From assembly GCA_015039365.1 (NCBI GenBank), contig WION01000512.1, forward strand, positions 1-38,276: a DNA stretch of 38,276 nucleotides. Direction: 5' to 3'. The translations under genes were made by a program, and so were the position numbers. Positions within the stretch are counted from its first letter, which is position 1; every line of letters begins with the position of its first letter. Positions 1 through 4,480 of the stretch are shown piece after piece. This DNA is from Amanita rubescens. Its lineage: Eukaryota > Basidiomycota > Agaricomycetes > Agaricales > Amanitaceae. The notes beneath the pieces are model-generated. The model made no database searches. It was not told where the DNA came from and saw only the letters and a list, made by a program, of their open reading frames with translations.

Positions 1-2024
1 AACTCACTGCCTGTGGGTAATTGAAAGAATTGATAAGGTTGCCTTTCAAACAATGCACAGTGGCATCCTCACTGACTGTTGGTCATAGAAAAGATGACAT
101 GAGACTGCCTTCTGAAAAGGAATGGTACTGATTCACTCACAAGCTTTTGGTCACAGATAAAGGTGCTTATTTAAAAAAAAGTACATGCAATGTCACTTAC
201 TGTCTGTTTGTGATGAGAAATGATGTGATGAGACTTCTTAAGCAGGAACATGAGCATTGTCACCCACTGCCTGTTTATTTTGAAAATAAAAAGTGATGTG
301 ACTGCTTTCTGGAAATGTGCAATGATGGTAACCTACATACTGTTGGTCATAGAAAAAATTTGTAATTACACTGCCTTCATGAATATATACAATCTGGCTC
401 ACATGCTATTGCCATAGGTGAGACTTCCTTTTCAATCAAATGTGTGATATGACTCACAGACTACCATGACAAAAGATGTGATGAAAATGCCCTGCAGAAA
501 AATGTGCAATGTGACTTACTACCTGTTGGAAATGGGGGAGAAATGATAATAAGATTGATTTTCAAACAAAATTGTCATCTCTCACATGCTGTTGGTCACA
601 AGAAAAAAATGTGAGGAGTGTCTTTCAGAAATATGTGCAATCCCCCCACCTGCTGTTGGTCATAGGAAAAGATGAGTGAGATTCCCTTTCAAACATGTGT
701 AATGTCACTCACATACTATTGTCATAAAAAAATGTGGCAAGAGTGCCTTTCAAAAATAGGCATTGTCACTCACAAACTGTTAGTTATAGGGAAATGATGA
801 TGAGACCACATTTCAGAAACATGTGAAATATCACTAACTGTCTGATGTTGGGAGAATGTGAGAATGTCTTTCAAAAATGTGTAATGTGACACTCACAGAC
901 TGTTGAACACAGGAACATGAGATTGCTTTCCATAAAGTGTGATTTCACTCACTCCCTTTAGCAATGAGAAAAAGAGTAATGAGACATTTGGAATGTCATG
1001 TACTACAATGGAGTCACTCACTCCCTGTTAGTAGTTGTAGGGTAAATGAGACCACCTTTCATAAAACTGTGCAATGTCACCCACTGTCTGTTGGTGATAA
1101 TATGCAAGGCTGACATTCAGAAACCAACACAATGTGACTTACTCGCTGTTAGTCATAGGAAAATATGTCACTAATCTCTCTTGATGAGACCTCAGATCCC
1201 ACTTACTTTCTAGTATTTGCCATAAACAGCTATTCTCAAAGATGTGCAATTCAACAACCCACAATCTGTTGCACATAAGGTTGCAATGATTTTCCTAGCA
1301 GCTAAGTGATCAGAATTGCTTACTTCCTGTTGGTTATGCCATCAGGCCTGATATGGGAGAGTAGTGTTATGTACCTACTTTCTGGTGGTTATAGGATGAG
1401 ATATGTATGATGAGACCACCACTCAGCACAAATGACACCTACATCCTTTTGGTTGTGAGATAAAATTGGATCAGGGTTTGATGAACTAAACTTACTACCT
1501 GTTGTTCATGGGGTAGGATGGGATTGACATTGGCAAGGTATCAGTATATAGTGTCACTTACATCCTGTTATTCATCAGATGACATCTGATGAGATCTTGA
1601 AAATAAATAAAGTATGTCACCAACTTTCTGTTACCATTGGATCAAGTCTAATCAAGGACAAAACATGGGTACTGCTCACTTTCTTTATGTAGCAACAATG
1701 GTAAAGTGAGTGCTACATGGAAAGTGGTTTTGCTCACTCCCTGTTGATTATAGGATAGAAGGTGACAATACTGAAAGATTTCTGATAAAGCACATTAACT
1801 CACTTTCTGTTGACCACATATTGCAGCATGAGATGATCTGCTGGTAATATCACCCACCTTCTGTGAAATATGTAAGACTGCTGAGGATCAAAGTGAGCTA
1901 CATATGTATGACCTACAAACTATTGTTTCTAAGACAAGACATCAAATACATGCTAGTTTAGTATTGCTCACCCACTGTTATCTATGTCATCAGATCTTGC
2001 AACAGACAATTTATCACAACCCAC
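1..2024 (-). repeat. Degenerate ~60-bp tandem array; each unit = one intron + one 3-nt exon
   Basis: On the minus strand each unit runs GTGAGTGACATTGCACATG ... TTTGAAAGG ... CTCATCAC ... TATGACCAACAG, then a free triplet, then the next GTRRG donor. The 33 triplets lie at 8, 73, 141, 201, 268, 337, 403, 458, 520, 586, 650, 713, 774, 839, 897, 953, 1022, 1085, 1143, 1207, 1263, 1324, 1379, 1443, 1496, 1562, 1625, 1680, 1738, 1804, 1858, 1917 and 1972 (first base, plus coordinates). Spacing is 53-69 bp, so introns are 50-66 nt. Position +5 of the donor is G in all 33; only two donors (GTTAGT at 839 and GTTGGT at 1625) depart from GTRRG. Units left of about 1150 resemble each other more than those from 1200 to 2024. 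The array continues past the left edge. Confidence 0.8.
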
Positions 2025-3541
2025 CTGTATTTCATCTAGCTCCTCAGACATCTAGAGTCCCATACATTTGACTTTCACTCAAAATATGTAATTAAAGTAT
2101 TACTTACTTGCTGTTGCACATTTTTACACACAAAGTTGATTATTTCATATGAAAATGCCTACTTGTCTATCCACCTATTCCCAATTCAGCTTTGCTGATA
2201 TCAACATGTTTGGCAAAATGTGCTTTACCCAGAAATGGGGGAATTTGGAAAACACTCCAAGAACAACATCATTCCATTTGAGCTTGTTAAGCAAGATATG
2301 TCTGAACAAGGTCAATATTTCTGCATGGGATTTCAAATGTCACACTCACCGGATTGCAGATCTAACACAGAGATCAAGATTATTCATTTGTGTTGAGATG
2401 AACAGCTGTTGTATGCTGATATCATCAATTGCTTCAGCAGTGTGCTGAGTCAATTCAGGACAATTATTCTCTTCTAAATCCATGTCTATTGGACAACATC
2501 ATGAGCATTTTTTCAAGGACGGGATGTTCACTATTCTCACCTTCCAATCGCACAAAGGCCTTTGGAGGGTACTTAGTATCCAACACTTTAGGAAGATAAA
2601 CTGTCTGAAAAATGCTTTCAGCCATTTGTCTGGCCTTTTCCCACTTATCTTCATCCTCTGTATCAGACAAATTGGCACTTTCATTGATTACTTGACCATC
2701 AAATTTGGTGAATACAACCACCAAAGGTACTGTAAAGGTGGTTAGTCCATTGTAAATTTTTTGTATTTGATTAATGGAAAGGAGGATCAACAGAGGTGAT
2801 TTGCCTGACCCAACCCAAGAGTCAAGACATTCCCAGAGAAACTTACCTTTGCCTGTCCCTTTACAGAAGAACTCAAGTTCTGCTGGTAAAATGGGACGAG
2901 GGCTGTCCATTGGTATACAGTACCTGCAAGAGACTTCATCAGCTAGTTATGTAAAGAACCAGTGAAGCATGATACCAAATTGCATGTAACTGATATTTCA
3001 ACTCAATTTCAGCAGATCTCTTCTCAATGAACTCCTGAACAATGTTTAATTCCTCATTTGAACCAGATTCAAATCCCCGAGAATCATGGAAGATGAAATT
3101 ACTTCCTGGGTATGTAATTTGATGTTCAATATCATGTAGGCCTCTCTGTCATTGCTGCAATTAATGGGTATATACAAATGCTATCCTTTGACTGACCTCA
3201 ATTGATGGCATCAAATGTATCACAGACTTTTGAAGCAGTTCACCTGCAGGAGGCTCAATAGTTGGAGAAGGCATAAAAACCAACCCAACTTACCATCCTT
3301 GTCATATATGATGGGCTCTGTCCCCTTTGCTACACCACAGACCTTTTCAAGGATGGTTGTCTTGCCTGCATTAGCCCTCCCAATCACGAGGATACGAAAA
3401 TGTGGGCATTCATATCGCTCTCTGAGAATTTTAACATGTGTCTCGTCTTTACCTGATATGTGCACATCAAATATTGGCAATGTCAAGATACATAATGGAC
3501 CTACTACTTGATGACTCAATAGTACTAGCTGTAGTTGCCAT
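1..3541 (-). CDS. G-domain GTPase with 3-nt micro-exon tail, 3' end outside window
   Basis: GTP-binding protein of the P-loop family expanded in agaricomycetes. Hand-built exons: 3541-3508, 3452-3294, 3243-3197, 3145-2976, 2923-2847, 2729-2541, 2485-2350, 2301-2229, 2174-2163, 2110-2108, 2051-2025, then 33 exons of 3 nt down to 10-8. The frame is continuous: 342 codons, no stop. Seen motifs: P-loop GRANAGKTT (residues 36-44), DSRGF (101-105, G3), TKFD (170-173, G4); the globular part ends near residue 295 (KFPHFW). The start at 3541 was chosen because its exon joins in phase, through a 55-nt intron, to KDETHVKILRERYE. After residue 295 come VDRQ, Q and MSEELDEIQ, then single codons. The G domain and normal exons are strong. 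The tail rests on splice-site regularity alone. The C-terminus and stop lie left of position 1. Cellular role unknown; family membership implies GTP binding only. Confidence 0.8.
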
Positions 3542-4480
3542 CACTGTTGTTTTGTGGTAGGTAATGGGAATCTGTGATTGTCTGTTGGGCATGACTCGAG
3601 TGATGTGGGGCTCAAAATAAAGAACAATAGACTAGTATACCTTCAGAACCAAGCGCGTGAAGCAAGAACTGGAACAGTGGGTCTTGGTCTCGACAAAAGC
3701 AGCTGGTAGATGATGTACTGGGACCCTGGACCAAAGGATCAGCAGACTGATGCAATGACAATTCGTGTAGTGGCTCAACATACCAGAATGCGGGGCAATT
3801 GATGTTGTATTCAAGTTGGGCTAAGGCTGTAGATCAGAGAGATAAAGAGATAATCGGGTGTGTCAGACCTACTAGGTGACCGTGCGACAGGCAACAGATT
3901 ATCAGATATGTAAGAAATGGTGCGCTTTGTCAATCGGACTTGTGGGCGCGAGGCGATGTTAGTGGCGCGCGGTGGTCAAAGAATTGAGTGCGTGCAGGCA
4001 GAGGACGGTCGCCCATATTTGGACAAATTCTCCTGCGCGACGTCACGTCACGCGTCACTCTCCAAGTTCTGCGTTCTGGATTGCGGACTCGCCGGCCGTG
4101 TTTCTCGACTACAGGAGATGGAGCGGAAAGAGAGAGATCTGAATGGGCGCGTAGTACGGCACGCTCGTGAAGGTATTGTTGCCCTTTTTCGTATGCGCAT
4201 AATGGTGCGCTGACTCGTTGCTTCTATAGGCTACAAACCCAGATCGATCCAGGCTGTCCTACCACGCGCTCGCCCCATCCATCCCCCATTTCCGTGACCT
4301 CAAGGAAGGGATGAAGAAGGGGAGGACTGGCAGACGACTTGTGGGCCATTGCCAGCGTTCTCCACCCGGTCACACGACGCGCAAAGTTCATATCCTGGCC
4401 CTTCAATTTCCAACCTGATCGTCCCATTTACCGAAAGAGTGACACTCATTCATCATCACCCGCTATCCCTCGATCGCACC
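3542..4480. other. Intergenic, upstream of the GTPase
   Basis: No open frame here joins convincingly into a gene. It holds the presumed promoter of the minus-strand GTPase. A CRE-like cluster of ACGTCA words sits at about 4038-4058. Base composition changes from AT-rich (GTPase side) to GC-rich near 3920. Confidence 0.5.

Follow-up and report, generated by a model that had tools for sequence, protein, structure and literature searches.

The window analysed here is a whole contig of 38,276 nucleotides (nt) from Amanita rubescens (WION01000512.1, hereafter C454), part of a 75.7-Mb assembly (GCA_015039365.1). Its minus strand carries, from about position 3541 (the start is not proven) to the contig end, a GTPase gene in which the exons of the GTPase domain are followed by a long array of exons of exactly 3 nt. 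We conclude with high confidence that the linker encoded by this gene is laid out one codon per exon, and we predict that the ordinary spliceosome joins all of these exons in frame. Contigs, loci and predicted proteins are cited below under our own C, L and P numbers.

The window contains 34 three-base exons, 33 in a row between 1974 and 8 and one at 2110-2108; all had been listed in a preliminary description made from the sequence alone, and each is exactly 3 nt long. The array proper (positions 8..1974, minus strand) reads WFKKGKKDVDKEIKRTGGSTFYQHVSHYATLSA, has 32 introns of 50 to 66 nt and runs past the contig end. A recount confirmed the intron lengths and donor sites reported earlier, with G at donor position +5 in 33 of 33 array donors and GTRRG in 31 of 33, the two others being GTTGGT after 1625 and GTTAGT after 839. 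All 33 array micro-exons are in phase 0, and the array shares one frame with the three short exons that precede it (VDRQ, CAA and a 27-nt exon). A search for chains of [ACT]AG-NNN-GTNNG at a spacing of 45 to 75 nt returned a length of 33 in minus-strand bases 1-2000. The longest such chain was 2 after 500 rounds of dinucleotide shuffling of this stretch and 0 on the opposite strand, and neither strand exceeded 1 in any 2-kb tile between 2200 and 37200, showing that the spacing of the array is far beyond chance. Within the array the intron bodies are near shuffled level (similarity of 0.59, versus 0.55 after shuffling), in line with the earlier remark that splice sites are conserved despite diverged introns. 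The first 15 micro-exons (1143..1974, minus strand; WF.KGKK..D.EI..) form an old, conserved part, of which the first 13 occupy positions common to 10 paralogues. The remainder (8..1087, minus strand) is variable, and its introns are overall closer to a 62-nt founder intron described below.

The contig breaks inside the array, and the continuation was found on two other contigs. C179 is 99.96% identical to the window over 5.1 kb, and C165 is a second copy, about 95% identical to the window. Both extend the array by a further eight exons of 3 nt (S R E Y Q E K L). The preliminary description had counted at least 34 micro-exons; the full array in C165 and C179 is larger, with 41 consecutive 3-nt exons, or 43 with one before (CAA) and one after (TGT). 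Beyond it follow an intron pair joined at a 0-nt AG/GT site, the TGT exon, and the exons of a C-terminal domain. This domain is conserved, predicted to be helical and in the frame of the array, and it also occurs in four proteins from the JGI set (P0013, P0017, P0029 and P0055). Because reading resumes in a conserved domain past the array, the array encodes an internal linker. Of the earlier idea of a protein tail written one residue per exon, the one residue per exon was retained and the tail was not. A terminal exon after the array, VSDVSGGNINGNINLYDSV ending in a stop, was considered as the protein end and dropped, given the in-frame C-terminal domain downstream; the model of P0121 (see below) skips the corresponding stretch, which may serve as an alternative protein end.

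A genome search with the P-loop exon scored at least 150 matches, from 260 candidates. We examined 20 further GTPase loci and three short regions, all in this one assembly. Arrays of 3-nt exons lie behind the GTPase at 18 of the 20 loci, several of the 18 being mutual copies; the longest unbroken chain counts 65 units (L025), and 10 of the 18 arrays begin with WFE.GKK..DREI. No array was found at L016 and L022, where foreign sequence follows inside the GTPase part. When the paralogues were examined for loss of the AG-NNN-GT spacing, it proved to be the exception: some few of their micro-exons measure 6, 9 or 15 nt. The 0-nt AG/GT site stands behind the last I/L micro-exon in 14 of the 18 loci by pattern (copies included); by eye it was visible in L015 and L030, and it was not seen in L023 and L031.

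Comparison of C165 with C179 showed how strictly the layout is kept. All 41 exons stay 3 nt long, and GT, the +5 G and AG are identical in 41 of 41, while 18 of the 40 array introns change length (23 indels). Differences affect 95 of 1970 intron-body bases and 3 of 123 codon bases; three of the 41 codons differ, one of them silently. In 13 non-redundant loci, the window gene included (L010, L014, L017, L019, L020, L028 and L032 were omitted as copies; L017 and L028 have one stop each), a single stop was found among 654 micro-exon codons, versus 44.1 expected (P = 7e-19). The median array intron of these loci is 61 nt. Where a GTRRGT donor followed an AACAG acceptor by no more than 30 nt, the two were 3 nt apart in 285 of 289 cases, 6 in two and 9 in two. 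We also compared the first 13 micro-exons pairwise in 11 loci (L021, L024 and copies left out). Among 2145 codon bases 246 differed, the residue was the same in 527 of 715 comparisons, and the intron bodies were 74% alike. The third base of the micro-exons, donor position -1, is A or T in 619 of 654, G in 34 (14 of them TGG) and C in one; in the GTPase exons of 11 loci the third base is C in 16% and G in 20%. Codons ending in CA or TA, which form CAG or TAG with the donor G, number 52, and those ending in AA or GA (AAG or GAG) number 314. Codon choice thus fits splicing, as if competing acceptors were avoided.

Evidence at the transcript level came from P0121, a protein of 285 residues from a 1,099-nt JGI contig, which has the linker WFETAKNRAKSYSHEDHYFAFGYFRGAHGPEPTKGIFPKGHAQQRHEFGKEIF and then the C-terminal domain. 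The spliced L032 paralogue is identical to P0121 at 278 of 285 residues over 53 exons, 40 of 3 nt, three of 6 nt, one of 9 nt and one of 15 nt. From the first to the last array residue the agreement is 52 of 53 over 44 exons (39 of 3 nt, the others of 6, 6, 6, 9 and 15 nt), and a further 3-nt exon of L032 upstream of the array, coding for H, is also present in P0121. A chain for L032 built before P0121 was known predicted the first 27 residues correctly (27 of 27; 25 with GT donors only). The array part of P0121 was found contiguous nowhere in the genome: a search with an 83-residue piece of the linker gave nine matches, all to its last 17 to 20 residues, which are one ordinary exon. A contiguous tail copy (retrocopy) was likewise sought in the genome and not found, although one search gave zero candidates and is weak alone. 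The P0121 contig is therefore, from these alignments, most likely a complementary DNA (cDNA) of L032 or a close allele, and it is almost certain that mRNA includes the one-codon exons. The earlier proposal of one residue per exon thus stands, with the exons kept between C165 and C179, the paralogues alike, and an intronless contig that follows the micro-exons of a paralogue. P0121 retains nothing from the 0-nt AG/GT site, and P0013, P0017, P0029 and P0055 read through into the C-terminal domain. P0002 reads WFEKGKKESDREIEYDG where L018 decodes WFEKGKKETDREIKYDG, with agreement at 15 of the first 17 array residues. The remaining JGI proteins are from other genes, perhaps of other species.

Several observations weigh against a fully spliced, one-codon-per-exon linker. 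No transcript was identified for the window gene itself, and the JGI contigs are called cDNA only by their shortness and missing introns. The exon choice in the final L032 splice was guided by P0121; the chain built beforehand, which used 3-nt exons only, missed the exons of 6, 9 and 15 nt and in its distal part gave 10 of 12 residues correctly, with V for K and Q for R. The expected path is left near FPHFW by P0004, P0063 and P0077, and later, within the linker, by P0002, P0006 and P0022; incomplete or alternative splicing may be common. The single stop among the 654 codons is a forced one in L027, and the arrays of L017 and L028 have one TGA codon each, that of L017 standing at the CAA of its near-copy L015. 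Between founder introns a spacer of 4 nt occurs at C599:60719-60724 and C254:13466-13471, which would shift the frame. Finally, differences at codon positions 1, 2 and 3 of the first 13 micro-exons number 97, 72 and 77 (715 comparisons each). Judged from these alignments, the codons are better conserved than the introns but without a third-base excess, and selection on the residues themselves is not shown; because the donor site constrains the third base, selection on residues and selection on splicing are indistinguishable by this test.

These points bear on two other explanations. One takes the array for a tandem repeat in decay that mimics splice sites and is not exonic; the protein would then end short of the array, like NCBI model P0001. 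The abundance of the 62-nt founder repeat and codon changes without a third-base excess would agree with it, yet we regard it as highly improbable: the intron bodies of the window array are near shuffled level while spacing and splice sites are kept, stops are depleted, the frame resumes in a conserved domain, and P0121 holds the codons of a sister array, which contradicts a non-exonic array if P0121 is cDNA. The other accepts the codons as real and supposes that most mRNA loses large parts of the array or retains introns, slow splicing acting as a switch and the main product being the GTPase alone or with a short linker. It could account for the six proteins that leave the expected path, and two properties of the locus would suit it, namely that skipping 3-nt exons preserves the frame and that, in both C165 and C179, an open frame runs through the half-intron beyond the 0-nt site until it reaches a stop (VSDVSGG..LYDSV). 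The P0121 model, however, includes every micro-exon, P0013, P0017, P0029 and P0055 continue into the C-terminal domain, and the depletion of stops extends over whole arrays. We consider such a switch unlikely.

The arrangement suggests how splicing of the one-codon exons might proceed. Fungi pair splice sites across short introns (intron definition), and U1 covers the last three exon bases. In the array, U1 at a donor would compete for the same three bases with U2AF at the acceptor before it. Neighbouring introns could therefore not be committed at once and would leave one after another, each being defined across its own 60 nt or so. Zero-nucleotide recursive splice sites are known from recursive splicing; a 0-nt AG/GT site stands near the end of most arrays and would fit stepwise removal. 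Such a design should tolerate errors, because skipping a 3-nt exon removes a single residue and always leaves the frame intact.

The introns of the variable middle parts of the arrays resemble one 62-nt founder intron, whose ends, GTGAGTGACATTG and TATGACCAACAG, are by eye not inverted repeats. A search with it, in which 40 of 158 candidates were scored, gave at least 410 matches in the genome; those among the matches listed are 100% identical and mostly 65 nt apart. In 8 of the 11 contigs among the matches listed, the array lies 2 to 3 kb behind a GTPase match; in C650, C88 and C190 the gene was not seen. L031 (C82:8565-16564) has 22 consecutive 62-nt introns with one substitution in 1364 nt, flanked by 23 codons of seven kinds. 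L035 (C604:7917-9479) has 24 such introns with one difference in 1488 nt and five kinds of codon, and L030 has its own shortened intron variant through most of its middle part, with differing codons. Of 264 intron pairs that are at least 97% identical, 231 come from L031; the 264 pairs have the same codon on the left in 23% of cases and on the right in 22%. Identical adjacent codons number 48 of 612, versus 42.9 expected (L031 omitted), giving no sign of 3-nt duplication. Read in this way, the sequences indicate that introns were copied or homogenised without their codons, and the variable middle of each array was likely filled by copies of one 62-nt intron, spread or homogenised without the codon. 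Hypermutation of the codons was considered and is not supported, as the codons of C165 and C179 change at an ordinary rate (the 3 of 123 and 95 of 1970 bases given above). A +1 reading of the youngest arrays resembles natural coding sequence and was rejected because it misfits the frames at both ends of L031.

The arrays might instead have arisen by plain tandem duplication of a 65-bp unit of codon plus intron, the codons mutating afterwards. The frequent 65-nt spacing invites this explanation, as do the runs GGGG, RRR and GVVGVVGVV in L031, the one additional unit of L015 relative to its near-copy L017, and a nearest relative that is somewhat closer than random in L018 and L030. In an analysis of nine loci, with L031 left out of this summary, introns were also more alike within than between loci in L015, L027 and L030; the two values were about equal in five others. 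Against duplication, the near-identical introns of L031 and L035 stand between codons of several kinds, the most similar pairs share less than a quarter of their codons on either side, and the codons of the C165 and C179 copies change at no more than an ordinary rate. Intron similarity moreover hardly falls with distance along the array (eight loci), the largest drop, in L030, being from 0.90 to 0.86. We regard this origin as doubtful. Insertion between existing codons would explain the identical introns and leave unexplained an exon length that is almost always divisible by 3; gain of whole units would explain the 3 and not the differing codons. As a guess, RNA-level copying of introns into existing junctions would explain both. 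We further consider, at a little short of even odds, a scheme in which a single mobile 62-nt intron fills the linker codon by codon, in bursts over whole loci, in phase 0 and 3 nt apart, and in which the spliceosome removes the resulting 40 to 65 introns in sequence. If this mobile-intron scheme is true, intron propagation is locked to the codon and builds a hypervariable protein region, and the identical copies across loci mean that the spread is recent or ongoing.

We compared the arrays with known systems. The micro-exon genes (MEGs) of Schistosoma mansoni have 10 to 20 exons of 6 to 81 bp per gene (3 to 81 in the abstract), most of 15 bp, with introns of 0.1 to 5 kb, and encode secreted proteins (PMC10526429). 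The arrays share with them a succession of short exons whose lengths are mostly divisible by three, difficult annotation and variable proteins; they differ in having about 40 to 65 consecutive 3-nt exons in the longer arrays, introns of about 60 nt, and a place in the linker of a mushroom GTPase. Thus, the run of short multiple-of-three exons is found here, and introns of 0.1 to 5 kb are not. Exons of 1 nt have been described in Arabidopsis APC11, where intron definition with stepwise removal was proposed (PMC4674806), and in Fusarium CYP621A (PMC12940212). In these exons, too, there is no room for both splice sites to be occupied simultaneously; each of these genes has one ultra-small exon, in contrast to tens in a run here. 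Near-identical introns in many copies are typical of introners and introner-like elements (PMC9860276, PMC4457414), which in ascomycetes lack target-site duplications and terminal inverted repeats and in Aureococcus add 12 bp (four codons) to the transcript (PMC9860276). Introners enter many genes, whereas the copies seen here lie 3 nt apart, between codons, in one gene family. Fungal stwintrons (PMC12403724) are excised consecutively by intron definition, as proposed here for the arrays, but are nested pairs, unlike the present linear series separated by codons. Among the open-licence PubMed Central (PMC) papers listed in our searches, titles and abstract openings dealt with single 1-nt exons, schistosome MEGs and introners, and none described arrays of one-codon exons or Amanita micro-exons. 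We file them under neither MEGs nor introners, because one defining feature of the former is absent and two of the latter are left open.

The arrays provide a natural, extreme test of exon recognition, with dozens of successive one-codon exons that are all included in a likely cDNA. They raise the question of how U1, U2AF and the catalytic spliceosome handle a 3-nt exon between two introns, and they allow direct measurement, within one gene, of the order in which adjacent introns are spliced and of the rate. As a record of recent intron spread they also offer many copies, whose introns are identical and whose codons are not.

The product is predicted to have a flexible, fast-changing linker between the GTPase and the helical domain. 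In a structure model of P0013, the linker (residues 295-358) has a predicted local distance difference test score (pLDDT) under 50, and both flanks are mostly confident. A fold search pointed to immunity-related GTPases (IRG), then EngB, septin and dynamin-like GTPases, among the families in the VIA-align list. With Pfam MMR_HSR1 the decoded window protein scored 20.2 bits and P0013 19.3, below the curated cut-off of 21.9; the P-loop and TKFD motifs can be recognised when the proteins are aligned. A PDB sequence search with query A2 gave no match at 0.01.

The GTPase-domain exons of the window gene, placed by spliced alignment, are at 3541-3505, 3452-3294, 3243-3197, 3145-2976, 2923-2847, 2729-2541, 2485-2350 and 2301-2229 on the minus strand, and the P-loop RANAGKT lies within them (2229..3541). 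P0001 (F5887DRAFT_1075333) spans this part of the gene. The N terminus was taken from it, the start used here being its second methionine; P0001 itself starts further upstream. Between the GTPase exons and the array, also on the minus strand, lie a 12-nt exon (2163..2174; VDRQ), which pairs with VDRA/VGRD of the JGI proteins P0002/P0022, the isolated CAA exon (2108..2110; Q), whose counterpart is the H exon of L032 present in P0121, and a 27-nt exon (2025..2051; MSEELDEIQ), which pairs with MSATEMKEIQ / MANKQLSEAQ. In the preliminary description the GTPase exons ran in frame into the array, which was borne out, and the 12-nt and 27-nt exons had been overlooked.

Current annotation cuts this gene family off. 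In the A. rubescens models P0001, P0005, P0007, P0086 and P0118 the linker is missed, skipped or mismatched, P0001 ending in ...AKLNWE. The assembly itself probably breaks at arrays and founder introns: three contigs start inside arrays or at founder introns, at window position 1 (C454), C650:4 and C88:4.

A region search with the tail of L015 gave 29 candidates, none at E ≤ 1. On the plus strand of C165, at 41578-41897 (L009), a six-unit relic of an opposite-strand array (EIEYGV) stands tail to tail with the window gene. L024 and L028 have second, convergent copies on the plus strand, comprising array units and the C-terminal domain, beside the listed genes. The insertions that cut the GTPase genes of L016 and L022 share sequence stretches and are probably one mobile-element family. 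In L026, of the units near 3726 and 3925, one is without a donor and the next without an acceptor, and the 69 nt from one remaining site to the other contain no stop in frame, as though an intron had turned into an exon.

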